The notes beneath the pieces were generated by a model. The model had not been told where the DNA came from, did no database searches, and saw only the letters and a list, made by a program, of their open reading frames with translations. This document shows positions 4,164-15,536 of a DNA stretch of 64,000 nt, piece after piece. Every line of letters starts with the position of its first letter. The first letter of the stretch is position 1. The DNA comes from Rhodococcus jostii RHA1 (GTDB lineage Bacteria; Actinomycetota; Actinomycetes; Mycobacteriales; Mycobacteriaceae). The stretch spans positions 62,001-126,000 of the forward strand of contig NC_008271.1 of the NCBI RefSeq assembly GCF_000014565.1, in the 5' to 3' direction. The position numbers were made by a program, and so were the translations under genes.

Positions 4164-5411
4164 TTAGCCGACCGCCACGGTCACTGGGAGTGCAAGCAGC
4201 TGGTTCACCAAACCGCTGGCGCCGCGCTGTGCGTCACCGTCCATTTCGATGGCGATATTGCGCACGTGCAACTCCTCGAGCAGGATCCGCAATTCGAGTT
4301 TTGCGAGCATATGTCCTATGCACCGATGCGCACCCGCACCGAATGTCAGGCCTGCGCCCCCGGTACCGGCGAGCGGTTTCGGATCCTCGCGGAACGGATT
4401 GAACTCGTTCGGATTTGGAAACGCTGCGGGATCGCGGTTCGCGGCTGAAAACACGACCAGAAGCGTGTCACCTTTCTTGATAGCCTGATCGCGGAATTCG
4501 GTGTCTTGTGTAGCGGTGCGCGCGAACCTCATCGCAGGAGTGATGTATCTCAGGAACTCGTCGACAAGTGCCGCTGACTTGCCTTCATCGAGGGCACGGG
4601 TGGTCGCAGCCCTGATCGCAGGCTCGGTGGCTAGGAGATGTCCGATGTGCGAGATTGTCGTATGCGTCGTCTCGAAGCCTGCAGCGAACAACGATGCCGT
4701 GTACAGCTGATACTCGACGAGGTCGATCTCACCGCTTTCCAGCGACTGCGCGAGTACGGTCGTCATGTCGTCTGCCGGATTGCGTAATTTCTCTTCCCCG
4801 AGGCGGGTCATGAACTCACCAATTTTCATGAACTCTCGAGTCAAACTCGCACCGCCATCGTTGACGGTCTGGCTCTCAAAGAGAGCATTCGTCGCCTCGA
4901 CGATATAGCCGCGGTGCTCAAGCGGAATCCCGAGGATCTGGGCGATTACCCGGGAGGGTACCAAGCGAGAGACTTCATAGACCCAGTCGAATCGCTCCAG
5001 GGGCAATGCATCATCAAGCGTTTCGACGACCACGTCACGGATCCATGACTCGAAGTTTGCCACAATGCGGGGACCGAAGGATTTGGCCGCCGCTCGGCGT
5101 ACGCGGCTGTGCTCGGGCGGGTCCATCAACAGAATGTGTTTGGTCATCGGGCCGTCACCCGTCGGATTCGGCAACGGGTATATTGATCCCTGCACTGAGC
5201 TGAACCGAGCTGGGTCTTGGAGTATCTCGACCACCTCGTCATAGCGTGTGACCACCCAGAAACCTCCATTCAGCGTGCCCGATTCGGCCGGATGCCAGGG
5301 AAGACCGGGCAGTGAGCGCAGCTGGTCATAGGCCTCATACGGTATGCCTTCTTTGAACGTCTCAGGATCGGAGAGATCCGGAATCCCTTGCAGTTCAGTC
5401 CTGACTGTCAT
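4164..5411 (-). CDS. cytochrome P450 monooxygenase
   Basis: Haem-thiolate monooxygenase of 415 residues, class I (fed by the ferredoxin and reductase downstream). Visible signatures: the haem loop LTFGAGAHRCIGHMLA with the cysteine ligand, the I-helix oxygen-activation site AAGFETTHTT, the K-helix pair EFLR, and the conserved MDPPEHSRVRR segment. The pattern LMDPPEH with GFETTH recalls actinobacterial P450s acting on steroids or branched lipids (CYP125/142-like), but the substrate cannot be read from sequence. AAGGATTGAA directly precedes the ATG. It is first in an operon with ferredoxin and reductase. A divergent 3-hydroxyacyl-CoA dehydrogenase across 650 bp might belong to the same degradation route, which is inference only. 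Confidence 0.95.
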   Translation of the reverse strand: MTVRTELQGIPDLSDPETFKEGIPYEAYDQLRSLPGLPWHPAESGTLNGGFWVVTRYDEVVEILQDPARFSSVQGSIYPLPNPTGDGPMTKHILLMDPPEHSRVRRAAAKSFGPRIVANFESWIRDVVVETLDDALPLERFDWVYEVSRLVPSRVIAQILGIPLEHRGYIVEATNALFESQTVNDGGASLTREFMKIGEFMTRLGEEKLRNPADDMTTVLAQSLESGEIDLVEYQLYTASLFAAGFETTHTTISHIGHLLATEPAIRAATTRALDEGKSAALVDEFLRYITPAMRFARTATQDTEFRDQAIKKGDTLLVVFSAANRDPAAFPNPNEFNPFREDPKPLAGTGGAGLTFGAGAHRCIGHMLAKLELRILLEELHVRNIAIEMDGDAQRGASGLVNQLLALPVTVAVG

Positions 5412-9536: not shown

Positions 9537-9715
9537 ACTCGGACCCAACCCTGGAGGGGTGGGTCAACCGCGGGGGCGGAATGTACCGGTGACCAAACCA
9601 GCGACTCGCTCCCACGCGCACCATCGGCGGTTCCGCCGAACGCTCGCCAGCATACCTAGACCACCCGAAACCCACGGACTCAACCGCGGGCTCGATACCT
9701 GCGTACCTGCTCGCG

Positions 9716-12316
9716 CTAGATTTCGATCTCTACTGGCACTCCGATCGCTTGGGCAACCGGAGTCCAGATGTCCACATCCTGGCCCGGGGTCTCGATGGAC
9801 ACAATGAGGGAATAGCGTGCCCCATCAGAACTTCGGTCCTTCCCAGCGTTTTCTTTCCACCATCCCGTCACCGGATACACGGCAAGTACACCGCGCTGTG
9901 CCAGATCCGCCGCACTTCCGTTCCAGATGTCACTGTGCAGCGAACCTGGGGCTTGCTGTTGCCTACTCCCGAAGAACCACTCGCCAGTGTCTTCCGCTGA
10001 TAGAGGACGCGTCTCGTCTTCCGCCAACGCCTTCTGGTTGATGCGCTTCTGGAAATCCGCTGTGCTCTCCGTGGCTCGCCGAATGTCGAACCGAAGACCA
10101 TGCGATGCATAGCTGTACCGTCGGTTCCACCCCCGGCGGCCCGGGTTGGGTTCGATGAAGTACGACAGCGTCACGCGCAGTTTGACCGGAGCGTCACCCA
10201 GGTCCGCAAGGATGTCGGCAGGCCAAGGCAGTTCGTGATAGTGGATTTCACGCATCTTCCCGCTGAGGAACGGGTGGATGGTGCCCTCCGAGATCAGGGT
10301 CAGTGCGTCAGTTGCGCTGCGAGTAGCCCTTTTCAGGTCAGGAACGCCCATCCCATAGCGGCGTAGCAGTGCAACTCTCGCACCCTTCTTGTTGTCTTTG
10401 GCGAATTGCGCGTTCATTGCTTGTGTCCACTCTGCCGAGTGCACAATGAGCGCTCTGATCGTTTCCGGCCACAAGGACGGATACTGCGCGGTGATCTGCG
10501 CTGCCATTGCAGCCGCTTGCGCTGTCGCAGCACTGGTTGCGTGTGTGGTGGTAAACGGGCGGCTGGGCATCCCGGGGATTATCGGCGCCTTCGTGGTAAG
10601 CAGTTGCAGGTTTGGTGGCGCGTCGAACTCGGTTCCCTCGGGTGACCGGGCAACGTTTCCACCCTCGAGGACTACATCCGGCTTGATCGGCCACTGCTTA
10701 CCAAAGGCCACTGAGGTGCGGCTTACGGGAGATAGCTCACCTCTGGATGCGACGGGACTCCAGCCGTCGAATTCGTTCGGGGCGCCGCTCATTGTGTCGA
10801 GCCGGGTGTATGCGCCGATGGTGAGCACGTTCCATGCCTGAGCAGGATCCTCGACGGGCTCGATATCGCTCCGGGTCAAATGGTCGTCTTGCCAGCTGTC
10901 CTTCCGGACGTTTCCGGCCGAAACACAGAACAGCCTGGGGTTCGGATCGTCGGTCTGCTTGAGGAAAGTGAGTTCCCCCTTCTCGAAGGCAACGCGACGA
11001 CCGACAGCCAAAGCGTCGAGCGTTGCCGACCACGAAGACGGCTGCCCGAACATCAGCAAGCGTGAGCCGGGAGGCGGCGTGGTCTGCCAGCGAGCTGTCA
11101 CAGCCAATGAGTAGACGCGGCGCCGGTTCGGCTGTTCGATTTCGACGTAGCTGAGAGCATCAGCGGTGACCGCACCAAACAATTCCGGCTCGCTCGAATC
11201 AGATTCGCTCTCGTCGCGCTCATCGCTCATCGGTGGTTTGGGTGGTGGCAAGATCTTCGCCGACTCGAGACGGTGGGTTAGCCGGATCGTTTCAGAACCG
11301 GCTACCGCTTGTCCGACGTCACCGAACAGGGCCAAGCCTGCCATCTCGGTCCCGTGACCCCAGGTGTCGTGGCGGGGCCACGTCGGGTCGGCGACCTGGC
11401 AGTCGCGTGCGTCCAGCGAGGTCTTCAGCAGTGGGTGTTCCCAGTAGACCCCGCTATCGACGACGCACACAGCCGGCGATCTGTCGTCCGCCGCCTCTAT
11501 CCGGTCGAGTAGCTCGTCCGTCCACTCCCGCTGTTCGACGGCATCGCTGGCGGCGAGAAAGTCGGTGGGGTCGTGTGGTCGTCGTAGCTCGGCGAGATCG
11601 TCGAGGATGTCGACAGAGGTGGCAAGTTGTTCGACCGTCCCGTGCAAGAGAATGACGGATCGCTCACCAAACCCGAGCGTCTGCCTTCCAACTCGCATTC
11701 CGGTTGCCTCGGCGTAGGCGCGCAGTCGCGTGACTTCCTGCCCATCACGACGGCGCAGCCAGACCTCCCACCACACCGATTGCTGTGGATCCGGGAACTC
11801 TTGCGGAGGATCTGTCCACAGACTTTCGATCGATGCTGCCCGAATCTCTTGGATTCGATCGATGGCCGGACTGTTCTTCGGCTTCTTCTCACCCGCCGAT
11901 TCGAGATAAGCGGAGACACGGTCGAGGAAGTACTTCATGGTGCCATCGGGCACGAACACTGTTGCCCGCTCGACGACTTGGCCACTGCTGTCCAATCCCT
12001 CTTGGACCGACCGCAGCTCCGGATGAACCTTCCCTTGCCGAGGGTCGAGAGTGTGCAGTGCCAACTCGATTCCGGGGAAGCTCTCGAAAACGACGTACGT
12101 TCCCTCCACAGCCCCGTCGACAGTGACGTCGATATTCTGGCGGCGGGCCCGCGCGTCCGCCTCGACTTGCCGCAGGTCGCCACGAAGCTTCGTGCCGTGT
12201 GCTACTCGGTCAGGTGGTGGCGCGAGCGCCGGGGTGTCCATGTCACGTGACGGCGGACGGTACTCCGCTGCGCGTGCGGTGGAAATGAACAAGTGCGGCT
12301 TGTCGCGCTCTGCCAT
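9716..12316 (-). CDS. ietS: subtilisin-like S8 serine protease, IetS type
   Basis: An 866-residue S8 (subtilase) protein with no signal peptide, so it acts in the cytoplasm. Catalytic triad: D287 in CVVDSGV, H321 in TWGHGTEMAG and S595 in THATSAATAQAA, with oxyanion N469 in VSAGNV. About 280 residues precede the protease domain and about 250 follow it. The gene starts 17 bases after the AAA+ ATPase gene (AAGGA 4 bases before ATG). This ATPase-subtilase pairing is the IetA-IetS arrangement, first described as a stability/exclusion (toxin-antitoxin-like) pair on an Agrobacterium Ti plasmid and later listed among anti-phage systems. The protease would be the effector and the ATPase its regulator. 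Assignment rests on domain pair and order, not on a search. Confidence 0.85.
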   Translation of the reverse strand: MAERDKPHLFISTARAAEYRPPSRDMDTPALAPPPDRVAHGTKLRGDLRQVEADARARRQNIDVTVDGAVEGTYVVFESFPGIELALHTLDPRQGKVHPELRSVQEGLDSSGQVVERATVFVPDGTMKYFLDRVSAYLESAGEKKPKNSPAIDRIQEIRAASIESLWTDPPQEFPDPQQSVWWEVWLRRRDGQEVTRLRAYAEATGMRVGRQTLGFGERSVILLHGTVEQLATSVDILDDLAELRRPHDPTDFLAASDAVEQREWTDELLDRIEAADDRSPAVCVVDSGVYWEHPLLKTSLDARDCQVADPTWPRHDTWGHGTEMAGLALFGDVGQAVAGSETIRLTHRLESAKILPPPKPPMSDERDESESDSSEPELFGAVTADALSYVEIEQPNRRRVYSLAVTARWQTTPPPGSRLLMFGQPSSWSATLDALAVGRRVAFEKGELTFLKQTDDPNPRLFCVSAGNVRKDSWQDDHLTRSDIEPVEDPAQAWNVLTIGAYTRLDTMSGAPNEFDGWSPVASRGELSPVSRTSVAFGKQWPIKPDVVLEGGNVARSPEGTEFDAPPNLQLLTTKAPIIPGMPSRPFTTTHATSAATAQAAAMAAQITAQYPSLWPETIRALIVHSAEWTQAMNAQFAKDNKKGARVALLRRYGMGVPDLKRATRSATDALTLISEGTIHPFLSGKMREIHYHELPWPADILADLGDAPVKLRVTLSYFIEPNPGRRGWNRRYSYASHGLRFDIRRATESTADFQKRINQKALAEDETRPLSAEDTGEWFFGSRQQQAPGSLHSDIWNGSAADLAQRGVLAVYPVTGWWKENAGKDRSSDGARYSLIVSIETPGQDVDIWTPVAQAIGVPVEIEI

Positions 12317-12333
12317 GTCATCCTTAGATTAAG

Positions 12334-13311
12334 TTAGCTCACATGCCCGCGGCGCTCGCGAAGCGCCAACCGCAGACTTGCGGTAGTCACCTGCTTGGCG
12401 CCCGAGAGAATCACTTCCTTAGCGGCCAAATCGCTTGCGATGGCTATCTCGCCGTGGCTGAGTCCCTCAGTATCTGCAGCGAGTTTAGACCATTCCAGTC
12501 GACCCACCGGCACATTAGCCAGCCGGTTGCGGATCACCTGGCGCGCAATGTCAGGCGATGGCAAGGGATAATCGATCACCGTGTCGAAGCGACGGAACAT
12601 CGCCCGGTCCAAGAGCTGCGGGTGATTCGTCGCGGCGACGACCAGGCTGTCTGATTGATCCATCTCGAGAAACTGCAGGAACGAGTTGAGTACCCGCCGG
12701 ATCTCGCCGACGTCGTTTGCCGAGCCCCGCTCACCAGCGAGCGCGTCGATCTCATCGAAGAGATACACCCCACGGGTTTCCGACAGCGCGTCGAAGATCA
12801 GCCTCAACTTAGCAGCCGTCTCGCCCATGAATTTGGTGATCAGGCCGTCGAGACGTACCTGGAACAGTGGCAATCTCAACTCGCCCGCCAGCACGTGCGC
12901 GGACATCGTCTTCCCAGTCCCGGGAGGACCAGTCAACAAGAGTCGCCGCATCGGCAGATAGCCGTGTGACCGCAAGCGGTCGCCTTGCCGCTGCTCCAGC
13001 AGGACCCGCTCGAGGCGAGTCCGCACCGACTGTTCCAAGACGAGATCCGACAGTACCAAGTCCGGGTAGGAGACGCTGAGCAACTGTGCGAGTTCACCGC
13101 GCGGCTGAGCAACCGATACGACCGGGGTCACCCTCCGGTGACTCTCCTGGACACGCAGACCGTCCACGAGATCGCGCAGATCTTGCGCGAAGCGATTCTG
13201 CCCATTGCGGGCGGCGCCGGCCGCAACTTGGAGCGCAACGGTATAGAACCGAGAGTTGTCCCCTTCTGCATGGCTCTTCACGAGCGCCTTCACCTGATCA
13301 GCGGTTGCCAC
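12334..13311 (-). CDS. ietA: AAA+ ATPase, IetA type
   Basis: 325-residue ATPase of the spastin/FtsH-like AAA class. Walker A GPPGTGKT at residues 128-135, Walker B VYLFDEID at about 182-189, sensor 1 N229 and arginine fingers R240/R241 in MFRRFD. The first 90 residues are a separate helical region that could contact the protease partner. The GTG start is well supported by AAAGGAGGTGA with a 6-base gap. It is followed after 17 bases by the subtilase gene; the two define an IetAS-type pair. By analogy with that system it would control the partner protease or remodel its substrates, which is inference. The upstream ACP-like gene ends 217 bases away on the same strand. Confidence 0.88.
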   Translation of the reverse strand: MATADQVKALVKSHAEGDNSRFYTVALQVAAGAARNGQNRFAQDLRDLVDGLRVQESHRRVTPVVSVAQPRGELAQLLSVSYPDLVLSDLVLEQSVRTRLERVLLEQRQGDRLRSHGYLPMRRLLLTGPPGTGKTMSAHVLAGELRLPLFQVRLDGLITKFMGETAAKLRLIFDALSETRGVYLFDEIDALAGERGSANDVGEIRRVLNSFLQFLEMDQSDSLVVAATNHPQLLDRAMFRRFDTVIDYPLPSPDIARQVIRNRLANVPVGRLEWSKLAADTEGLSHGEIAIASDLAAKEVILSGAKQVTTASLRLALRERRGHVS

Positions 13312-13528
13312 CAGTCACCTCCTTTCGCTCGGCTCGTGTCTGCCTGATTATTGCAGGAGCGACCCACAAGGTTTCACGCGCTCGGCAACATAAGTGCAGC
13401 TAGGGAAAGCAGCCGGAGATCCCTCGCAGCCGAAGCGATGCGAGACCCCAGATTGGACACGCCGTGCGTGGGTCTTGAGATGACCTGGTCAACTCGCGGC
13501 CGCCCCCTTTGCCCGGTCTGTTCAGAAT

Positions 13529-14125
13529 TTAAGATTCGCTGTTCCACCATGACACGTCGGCCCCAAGCGGGTCGGCAATTGCCTCGTCCGCCGGTTCGGC
13601 GATTGCCTCTTCCGCAACGAGCTTCAGATAGGCCATGTAGTCGCCGAGCGTGCGCATGCCGAAGAGCTTGTCGTCGGGAATCGTGACCCCGAACGCGTCC
13701 TCTATTTGCGCGGCAATCTCGACCATTGTTGACATGTCCTCAATGCCGAGGTGCTCCACCAACGAGGTCTGCGGGGTGAGATGGGACCGCTCGATGCCAG
13801 TCACCGCCACGATGATCTCAGCCACAGCGGAGAAGGCCACAACCTCCCGCGAGCCAGGACTACGTTGCACAGGAGACCGCGGTGGACGGCTGGCTGCCCC
13901 CGACAACAGTTCACGGACCTGCTGGTCGAAGAGGTGATCGGCCGAGCAGTCCTCCGAGGTCTGCTTCTCGTCTTCCTCTGCCAAACGACGGGCGAGCCGC
14001 TCGGCACGCAACCTGGGGATCCGGCTACGCAGAGCACGGGCTTCGGGCGTCCCCAGCGGAGATTCCTCAATCAGGCGACGAAACTCTTCCAACCCCTTAG
14101 CGTCGGGATCGTTGTATTCAGTCAT
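13529..14125 (-). CDS. acyl-carrier-protein-like protein with a charged N-terminus
   Basis: 198 residues. The C-terminal half (about 105-175) follows the acyl carrier protein four-helix pattern: SLVEHLGIEDMSTMVEI, then IEDAFGVTIPDD and LGDYMAYL. In canonical carriers the phosphopantetheine serine is in DSL; here the aligned tripeptide is DMS, so Met stands at the usual position and a Ser one residue later. The N-terminal 90 residues are Arg/Glu-rich and helical. The ATG overlaps the 3' end of the sigma-like gene by 8 bases (ATGACTGA) with GGAGGGG upstream, implying translational coupling. The role is unknown; position in front of the ATPase-protease pair suggests a regulatory or adaptor part. 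Confidence 0.7.
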   Translation of the reverse strand: MTEYNDPDAKGLEEFRRLIEESPLGTPEARALRSRIPRLRAERLARRLAEEDEKQTSEDCSADHLFDQQVRELLSGAASRPPRSPVQRSPGSREVVAFSAVAEIIVAVTGIERSHLTPQTSLVEHLGIEDMSTMVEIAAQIEDAFGVTIPDDKLFGMRTLGDYMAYLKLVAEEAIAEPADEAIADPLGADVSWWNSES

Positions 14126-15137
14126 TGCTGTTCCCCTCCGTCCGGGAGGCTCTGCGGCGGATACGGCGCAGAGTGTTGCGGACCGATTCCTCGGTCTGGT
14201 CGCCTAGGGCATCCGCGATCTCTTTGAACGTCAAGCCGTCGGCGCGGAGCCTGACTATCTTCATTTCACGTTCGCCGTGAACGCACTTAAAAGCACGGGC
14301 GAGTTCGTCGCGATTCATCACCGTGTGTTCAGGGTCGGGTTCGGCGGGTCTTCTTAGTGGGTGGGGATTGTGTTCGGTATGGCGTTGAATAACCTCGGGC
14401 TCGAAGCTGCACTCGGAGTGGCGCCATTTCCCCTGGTCTCGCTGCCACCTTCTGAATTCGTTGCTGAACACCAGTAGGCAGGTCGTCGTGAAGTATGACG
14501 TGATGTCGGCGCCGCCGTCCTCTCGCCATCCCGTGCCGTTGCGGCACCGTTGCTGAAACAGCTTCAAGGCGGCGAATACCACGCCGTGGGCGAGATCACC
14601 GCGCTGATGTTCGTCTGTGCGCAACAGTTGCCGCTCGGCGCTGGTCGCAGGAACTCCGCGCCCTAGCTGGTGGGCCTCTTTGTAGATCTGCCCTGACTTG
14701 ATCCATTTGTTGAGTAATCCGAGCGCGTACCGCGAAAGCTCGATGACCAGTTCGTCCCATCGTGGGCCGCGGAACCCGTCGGCCTTGACGATGTCGAACA
14801 CCTTGATCGCCCCCTGGTTTCGACGCTGTTCATCATTGTCTGCCAGGTTCGCGTCGTCAGCGGGGAATTCGGGGGGTATGTCGAGCGGCGCGGTCACGGC
14901 CTCCACGGAAGGGTGAGGGCCTTCCGAGGTTGCCGCTGGTCTCGTGGAAGCGGGCCCGCCCTGATCGCAGTCGTTGACGAGATGGTTCCGGAGGTCGCCG
15001 GTATCGACCGGGTTGTCGTCCTCCCTCCTGCCCTCCGCGTCGTCGTCGTGGAATGAGCTCACATCGTGCAGGGTTCGGGGCGGCCAGCCATCATCGGCCT
15101 CGTCTCCGTTGGACCAGTCCAAACTCGCGTTCGTCAA
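14118..15137 (-). CDS. atypical sigma-70-family factor
   Basis: 339 residues. The C-terminus carries a region-4 helix-turn-helix (EREMKIVRLRADGLTFKEI, then ADALGDQTEESVRNTLRR). The middle (TSYFTTTCLLVFSNEFRRW) resembles a group of actinobacterial sigma-like proteins with ATLKTYF-GACLLEFPN-YRRW. The first 100 residues are acidic and poorly ordered. The TTG start is supported by AAGGAGGTG 8 bases upstream. It is the first gene of the row sigma-like, ACP-like, ATPase, protease, and could transcribe its own operon. A perfect CRP/GlxR-type site lies 76 bp upstream. An anti-sigma factor is not evident, unless the divergent membrane peptide plays that part. Confidence 0.8.
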   Translation of the reverse strand: MTNASLDWSNGDEADDGWPPRTLHDVSSFHDDDAEGRREDDNPVDTGDLRNHLVNDCDQGGPASTRPAATSEGPHPSVEAVTAPLDIPPEFPADDANLADNDEQRRNQGAIKVFDIVKADGFRGPRWDELVIELSRYALGLLNKWIKSGQIYKEAHQLGRGVPATSAERQLLRTDEHQRGDLAHGVVFAALKLFQQRCRNGTGWREDGGADITSYFTTTCLLVFSNEFRRWQRDQGKWRHSECSFEPEVIQRHTEHNPHPLRRPAEPDPEHTVMNRDELARAFKCVHGEREMKIVRLRADGLTFKEIADALGDQTEESVRNTLRRIRRRASRTEGNSND

Positions 15138-15212
15138 CTAGCCCACCTCCTTCTGGCATCCAGATATGGGGGTTATATGTGCGCTCACCCCGCGTCGAGA
15201 CCACCGCCTATA

Positions 15213-15228
15213 TGTGATTTACATCACA
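15213..15228. promoter_or_regulatory. CRP/GlxR-type binding site
   Basis: TGTGATTTACATCACA matches the cAMP-receptor-type consensus TGTGA-N6-TCACA and, including the central TA, the GlxR consensus of Corynebacteriales (TGTGANNTANNTCACA) at every fixed base. It lies between the divergent sigma-like operon (start at 15137) and the small membrane peptide (start at 15321), so it could regulate both. Confidence 0.7.
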
Positions 15229-15320
15229 CCCTCTTGGTTGGGTTCAACTATTGCCGATCGGACATATCACTCCTGGTAGACGGGCAGTTCCGCCCGTCGA
15301 ATCGAGCAGGAGGGGATCTC

Positions 15321-15536
15321 ATGACCGAGTTACGAGGACAGACCCAAGGCAATGGGGCAACTCCGGAAGGCTCGACGACTAAGCGTTGGATGGGACGGGT
15401 GACCGCGCGGGTGGTCGCGGCGATCGTCATCGGGATGGTGTCCCCGCACCTCCCGACGATCGGCTCTACCGCACCGCCCGATGAGACTCCGCGCCACGGG
15501 GTCGCCGTCGTCTGCATCATGGACGACGGCAGTTGA
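15321..15536 (+). CDS. small single-pass membrane peptide divergent from the sigma-like operon
   Basis: 71 residues: a polar N-terminus, one hydrophobic segment at about 25-43 (VTARVVAAIVIGMVSPHL), then a polar C-terminus ending in VVCIMDDGS. The start is clear, with AGGAGGGG 5 bases before the ATG. A strong terminator follows 50 bases after the stop. It is divergent from the sigma-like/ACP/IetAS row and shares its control region with a GlxR-type site. I do not recognise the family. Possible roles are a membrane sensor or anchor for the sigma-like factor, or a small membrane effector; both are inferences from position. Confidence 0.7.
   Translation: MTELRGQTQGNGATPEGSTTKRWMGRVTARVVAAIVIGMVSPHLPTIGSTAPPDETPRHGVAVVCIMDDGS

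Follow-up and report, generated by a model that had tools for sequence, protein, structure and literature searches.

A putative sigma factor cassette with a peptide-tagged partner adjoining an IetAS ATPase/protease pair on a plasmid-sized replicon of Rhodococcus jostii RHA1

The locus and its IetAS pair

We analyzed a 64,000-nucleotide stretch of Rhodococcus jostii RHA1 DNA (RefSeq assembly GCF_000014565.1, contig NC_008271.1, positions 62,001 to 126,000; hereafter the window), which lies on a plasmid-sized replicon of 332,361 bp in a genome of 9,702,737 bp and four contigs. Our subject is a group of minus-strand genes that includes a putative sigma factor gene with a tagged partner gene and, next to these, an IetAS ATPase/protease pair. 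The sigma-like gene (15137-14118; 339 amino acids [aa], TTG start), which resembles those of extracytoplasmic function (ECF) sigma factors, overlaps by 8 bases an acyl carrier protein (ACP)-like gene (14125-13529; 198 aa) that we refer to as the partner gene. A 217-bp gap (13312-13528) separates the partner gene from ietA, encoding an AAA+ ATPase (13311-12334; 325 aa), and a further gap of 17 bases precedes ietS, encoding an S8 protease (12316-9716; 866 aa). Divergently oriented on the plus strand is a gene for a 71-aa peptide with one hydrophobic segment (15321-15536), with AGGAGGGG directly 5' of its ATG. The open reading frame (ORF) coordinates agree with the original prediction for this locus as to the four same-strand genes, the overlap, the gaps, and the divergent small peptide. 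Between 13200 and 15700, two terminator-like sites were found where 1.9 are expected, which is not significant, and sigma-70-type promoters number none against an expected 0.4.

The ATPase and protease are readily recognized, with Pfam matches to AAA (1.2e-29) and Peptidase_S8 (5.7e-53) and PADLOC matches to IetA (5.7e-70) and IetS (5.4e-34), as had been proposed. The NCBIfam equivalog models, there spelled IteA and IteS, give scores of 197.8 and 49.1 bits against cutoffs of 510 and 900 bits, respectively; because these fall so far below the cutoffs, the pair represents a divergent branch. The catalytic residues named earlier are intact: the Walker A motif GPPGTGKT starts at IetA residue 128, and the protease triad D287/H321/S595 is conserved in all 13 aligned IetS proteins. 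A PDB sequence search with IetS gave no convincing match. IetAS of pTiC58 and its toxin-antitoxin homologues S026-S025 of SGI1 (PMC5006074) have the same gene order, protein families, Walker A motif, and triad; apart from the low equivalog scores the window pair is unremarkable, and the upstream genes are no part of it. We note that IetS of R. opacus plasmid pLPS8 (L047:8996-11558; L numbers denote loci) is annotated as two overlapping ORFs, and is whole on pLP414. By its sequence, the window pair appears to be an IetAS system like those known already, a kind linked to phage defense and to plasmid stability or incompatibility, and it has an upstream region to itself.

The original prediction treated the sigma factor and ACP-like protein as dedicated parts of an actinobacterial IetAS variant, and named the neighborhoods of other ietA genes beforehand as the place where this idea could fail. 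The shared strand and order and the short gaps are in its favor. A search of 298 genomes of the order yielded 13 IetA matches at 1e-40, including that of the window, and we inspected the neighbors of nine of the other 12 (leaving out the three weakest), together with four plasmid loci (pRJH2; pLPS8 and pLP414, which are near copies of each other; and DN22 p1). No sigma or partner gene is present within at least 5 kb upstream of ietA at any of these 13 other loci. Neither IetA nor IetS was found in the sequence around sigma relatives at 61 loci or at 33 further loci from named genomes, a set of 94 that includes a repeat (L053/L115), near copies (L057/L157 and the pMAB23-like set L052, L118-L122), and a few short loci (L149, L226, and L243).

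Plasmid pRJH2 bears on the same question from both sides. It is 93.6% identical to window positions 9644-13438, spanning IetAS and the ietA-proximal part of the 217-bp gap, and right after this block is a scrap of the ACP gene (L046:13170-13378; 85.6% identical to window 13745-13960). Because pRJH2 holds this remnant beside IetAS, the neighborhood is common to two plasmids and predates the window plasmid, as a single system would have it. However, the remnant is truncated and frameshifted, lacking 306 bp that take in the ACP core, and the sigma gene is absent; the next listed genes encode TetR regulators, in a gene table that omits pseudogenes and lacks one locus tag at the remnant site. Because pRJH2 keeps IetAS while the sigma and ACP genes have decayed or been lost, IetAS is separable from them. 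From the two surveys and the decay on pRJH2 we therefore rejected a four-gene IetAS operon or system, which we now regard as very improbable: the sigma and ACP genes appear to adjoin IetAS without forming one system with it, and a need of IetAS for a sigma/ACP adaptor is unlikely.

A family of putative sigma factors with peptide-tagged partners

The description of the two upstream genes as sigma-like and ACP-like stands, with matches to Sigma70_r4_2 (1e-3, a weak score) and PP-binding (8.7e-10), respectively. The window sigma also matches the NCBIfam model TIGR02937 (sigma70-ECF) at 1.2e-7, with 31.5 bits falling below the cutoff of 42.9, and scores 293.6 bits to a family hidden Markov model (HMM) that has this sequence among its training rows. 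An AlphaFold model has a predicted local distance difference test (pLDDT) value above 90 in its core, and its top structural matches are to region 4 of sigma factors, with region 2 a less clear match; in this predicted structure a region 4 fold is present. Relatives occur on 52 of 72,556 plasmid records. Counting matches from roughly 75 bits upward, they are also present in at least 27 of 397 genomes of the order and at least 18 of 394 genomes of the class, the genome counts being lower bounds because five or six candidates were scored per genome; matches of about 41 to 58 bits were counted as ordinary ECF factors.

The many plasmid-borne relatives and the weak region 4 scores would suit a different explanation, namely that the protein serves plasmid replication or maintenance and has a sigma-type helix-turn-helix (HTH) without being a transcription factor; RepB of pAL5000-type plasmids is reportedly a replication protein of this kind. 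We consider this improbable, as the AlphaFold model best matches sigma regions, a conserved promoter-like element (see below) lies upstream of many copies, and several copies are on contigs of 5 to 9 Mb. Plasmid-borne sigma factors have a precedent in SigN (ZpdN) of Bacillus subtilis pBS32 (PMC6751061 and PMC10601692), which is from another bacterial phylum and is not known to have an SSLG-type partner of the kind described next.

In the relatives, a partner gene lies directly 3' of the sigma gene, mostly with a 4- or 8-base overlap. What is constant in the encoded partners is a peptide of about 34 residues, roughly [DE]F..L[IL]E.SSLG...AR.LR.R.P, the Gly and one Ser being fully conserved across 36 aligned copies; we refer to this as the SSLG peptide, or tag. 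The window copy, at the N terminus of the partner (13988-14089, minus strand), reads EEFRRLIEESPLGTPEARALRSRIPRLRAERLAR, with SPLG in place of SSLG, and was detected at 4e-6 by a tag HMM trained without the window sequence. The window thus has both elements by which we define the cassette, a family sigma gene and an overlapping partner gene bearing the peptide. The full tag HMM, built from 42 partners of which 41 are from the same loci, matches at 49 of 61 sigma loci. In a separate set of 33 named loci, two of them repeats of loci already counted, 27 carry the tag at E values up to 0.05. When HMMs were trained on one half of the loci and applied to the other, 9 of 13 and 19 of 35 loci excluded from training were recovered; among the 2668 ORFs of 25 control loci, the full HMM had no match. 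When up to 150 candidates per genome were scored in 34 sigma-bearing genomes, 38 tag matches were found in 33 of them, each adjoining a sigma gene. A PDB sequence search with the peptide gave no convincing match (best E value, 0.45). In the open-licence PMC literature we found no description of the SSLG peptide or the sigma-partner module, and searches there on IetAS, pRHL3, and R. equi plasmids likewise yielded none.

Two patterns were observed in passing among these loci. At L133, L134, and L138 the family sigma gene is overlapped by a second gene without the SSLG peptide; that of L133, which was scanned, encodes an ECF sigma factor, giving an untagged sigma-sigma pair. A motif of the form RSA.TGRYV...ATA.R.P.TTV.E recurs alongside short or basic-tailed partners, within the partner itself in L052 and L118-L122, and in a separate small downstream ORF in L056, L061, and L062, where the L056 and L061 ORFs are annotated as ABC transporter ATP-binding proteins.

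Beyond the tag, the partners are strikingly diverse. Pfam identifies an ACP domain in the partners of the window and of a Mycobacterium marseillense plasmid (L060), a YceG/MltG domain in Nocardia partners, and SsgA in those of Streptomyces, Kitasatospora, and two f33 genomes. Others contain ECF sigma domains, HTH_17, a LuxR- or sigma-4-type HTH, a response regulator plus GerE, MarR, Crp, XRE plus DUF5753, TPR, pentapeptide repeats, or GAF-GGDEF-EAL, and one (L240:4708-5601) is a SMODS-type nucleotidyltransferase resembling the CD-NTases of CBASS (PADLOC cyclase, 3.2e-12). Four long partners (L117, L153, L251, and L254) match no Pfam family, and 13 partners of 52 to 78 aa are little more than the tag. 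Many partner domains appear to have been copied from host regulators or from envelope and division proteins. What the sequences show is an overlapping gene pair that recurs, with a peptide kept constant amid such different domains and located next to the sigma gene in the searched bacterial genomes.

For the window, the variable domain (13604-13843, minus strand; partner residues 95-174) resembles AcpM of mycolate-making actinobacteria. It matches the NCBIfam AcpM model at 1.1e-20, below the cutoff, and AcpM in the PDB (1klp) at 1.2e-18; a model from the single sequence (mean pLDDT, 63.7) has the ACP fold according to Foldseek, at 1.6e-6 to AcpM, the top matches being AcpM within MmpL5 and Emb complexes. 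Identity in the AcpM rows of the fold search is 39 to 52%. The window domain differs from AcpM in its fusion to the SSLG peptide and at the phosphopantetheine Ser, which is replaced in the HMMER alignment by D130 with one residue inserted after it (IEDMSTMVEI versus IDSLSMVEI); the Ser is kept in 29 of 29 AcpM loci and in L060. Because this Ser is lost, the window domain probably binds the protein partners of AcpM without carrying acyl chains.

To relate partner type to sigma descent, we used a quick tree of 61 labeled sigma sequences. On this tree the partner class needs 25 changes, against a minimum of 19 and a mean of 44.8 in shuffled data, where none of 200 replicates was as low, so that on this tree partner type for the most part follows sigma descent, with some exchange of domain types between related sigmas. 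Candidate exchanges among near relatives are L146 (MarR) with L147 (Crp), and L151, L152, and L154, all on starred branches, which are less trustworthy where long rows are present. The window and L060 sequences, both with ACP partners, are sisters on an unstarred branch (support, 93). For the tree and promoter analyses we used a set of 61 loci that differs from the 61 of the tag survey, as named loci were added and untagged loci removed; some near copies were also left out, and others retained (L052/L120/L122, L059/L230/L235, and L153/L251). Five labels were given by likeness or by eye (L235, L237, L251, L120, and L122), with L251 also having been scanned with Pfam and found to match no family.

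The gene arrangement would also suit a partner that works as a classical anti-sigma factor, with the variable part solely a sensor, since sigma/anti-sigma pairs have an overlapping sigma-then-partner gene order and sensor-type domains (Crp, response regulator, MarR, and GGDEF-EAL) do occur in the partners. Known ECF pairs that are among the fold matches (BldN-RsbN, SigH, and AlgU-MucA) share sigma region 4 and, less surely, region 2, as well as the overlapping second gene, and the promoter-like element of the relatives would fit the autoregulation of such pairs. The SSLG partners differ in joining a constant peptide to many unrelated host-like domains. Moreover, Pfam finds no known anti-sigma domain in the partners scanned, although such a scan would not reveal a new kind of domain; several partners are enzymes and others hardly extend beyond the tag; and the tag is found in phage proteins too (see below). 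We think a classical anti-sigma role less likely than not, while giving it appreciable weight.

Upstream elements and the divergent gene

Starting from a crude dyad scan, we identified a promoter-like element upstream of sigma relatives, consisting of AAAAAA.TTTG, CCGTGGGGT, 14 bases, and SACNTANNAGG. It exceeds the level reached in 1% of simulations in 35 of 61 upstream regions when the position weight matrix is built without the class under test. On the sigma strand, which supplied its training sites, the core passes threshold in 33 of 61 regions; the opposite strand has it in 17 of 61, some of these being near copies. None of 120 control stretches reaches the threshold. A small membrane protein is often encoded divergently: an HMM for it, with eight of its ten training loci within the set scanned, matches at 41 of 92 loci, the best match always being divergent from the sigma gene and lying near the start of that gene in all but L055 and L255. 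The window's 71-aa peptide has the corresponding position but was not accepted as a member of this family (E = 0.008, 2.2 bits). An element present in many relatives, in some of them on both strands, together with a divergent gene, has the look of an autoregulated divergent pair, and the sigma factor may be what reads it. The self-controlled expression put forward by the original prediction would fit the relatives, where the element is common to the sigma gene and some divergent genes; the window has no such element.

The CRP-like signal noted earlier was confirmed. A perfect TGTGA-N6-TCACA box of the CRP/GlxR type lies at 15213-15228 (TGTGATGTAAATCACA in minus-strand reading), and is the sole site with one mismatch or fewer in the 64-kb window. 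It is followed after 30 nt by a -10-like GCACATATAA (15173-15182, minus strand), and in L060 a one-mismatch box is followed, 30 nt on, by GCACCTATAA. Boxes with up to one mismatch are present in 7 of 61 upstream regions versus 1 of 61 controls (simulation mean, 0.8), and with up to two mismatches in 18 of 61 versus 4 of 61 downstream controls; because simulated upstream regions gave as many as 19 at the latter level (mean, 10.85), we claim enrichment at one mismatch or fewer only. The box suggests control of the window copy by the host CRP/GlxR.

Phage occurrences and a proposed plug-in partner

The SSLG peptide is not confined to sigma partners. It is inside gp105 of Rhodococcus phage Finch (L256:4551-5405) and in proteins on six viral contigs (L257-L262), which are of varied kinds, one being DNA methyltransferase-like, and carry it at varying positions. 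Relatives of the sigma factor were not found in the phage collection, on the viral contigs scanned, or at the tagged phage and viral loci. Tagged phage proteins that have no accompanying sigma make a general host factor a plausible target for the peptide. In plasmids and phages alike, the tag might dock to the RNA polymerase core enzyme or to an adaptor of a protease, for example, with the sigma simply coexpressed. This is at odds with the 34 sigma-bearing genomes, where all tag matches adjoin sigma, and with 246 genomes of the class, in which scoring up to 32 candidates per genome gave one clear tag apart from sigma (L217), besides weak, partial matches in G733 and G757. The tagged protein of L217 is identical to that on an IMG/VR viral contig (L257). 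Residue counts over the phage copies were set aside, as rows of their alignment, at least that of L217, are misaligned. We judge a general target with a bystander sigma to be a minority possibility, although one to be taken seriously.

The interpretation that we favor, by a little more than an even chance, is that the locus comprises two adjacent modules: IetAS, and a sigma cassette with a peptide-docked partner carrying an exchangeable host-like sensor or address domain. The ECF-like sigma would be cotranslated with its partner, the constant peptide would dock the partner onto the transcription machinery, either RNA polymerase or the sigma itself, and the variable domain would sense or address the state of the host, so that the partner restrains or directs a sigma that, in the relatives, drives the promoter-like element. 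Several observations weigh against this. Foremost is the portability of the peptide seen in the phage occurrences, which are the main threat to sigma docking. In addition, the tag HMM does not match at 12 of the 61 and 6 of the 33 sigma loci; the tag, mostly N-terminal, is C-terminal in the L240 nucleotidyltransferase and central in L231; the window sigma scores 19.1 bits to Sigma70_r4_2, below the cutoff of 25.7; the family element is missing upstream of the window sigma (4.0 versus a threshold of 11.7) and from its sister L060; and the small membrane protein is missing or unrecognized at 51 of the 92 loci.

A broader and more speculative proposal, which we would not expect to hold in full, is that actinobacterial plasmids and phages share a portable label of about 34 residues that joins copies of host regulators and enzymes to the transcription apparatus, with plasmids adding a self-amplifying sigma that gates a regulon by host state and phages tapping or blocking the switch. 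The tagged phage proteins suggest a connection of phages with the regulation of plasmids. What appears new at this locus is the sigma/partner cassette with its proposed plug-in partner, the IetAS pair being of a known type. If the two-module interpretation is correct, the cassette would represent a widespread class of plasmid-linked actinobacterial sigma factors whose partners follow a plug-in principle, and a testable case of a mobile element coupling its genes to host envelope, division, development, cyclic AMP, and cyclic di-GMP; the SSLG peptide would also be a ready-made docking tag for synthetic circuits. Finally, we note a gene for a cytochrome P450 at window positions 4164-5411 on the minus strand, downstream of the sigma/ACP/IetAS region.

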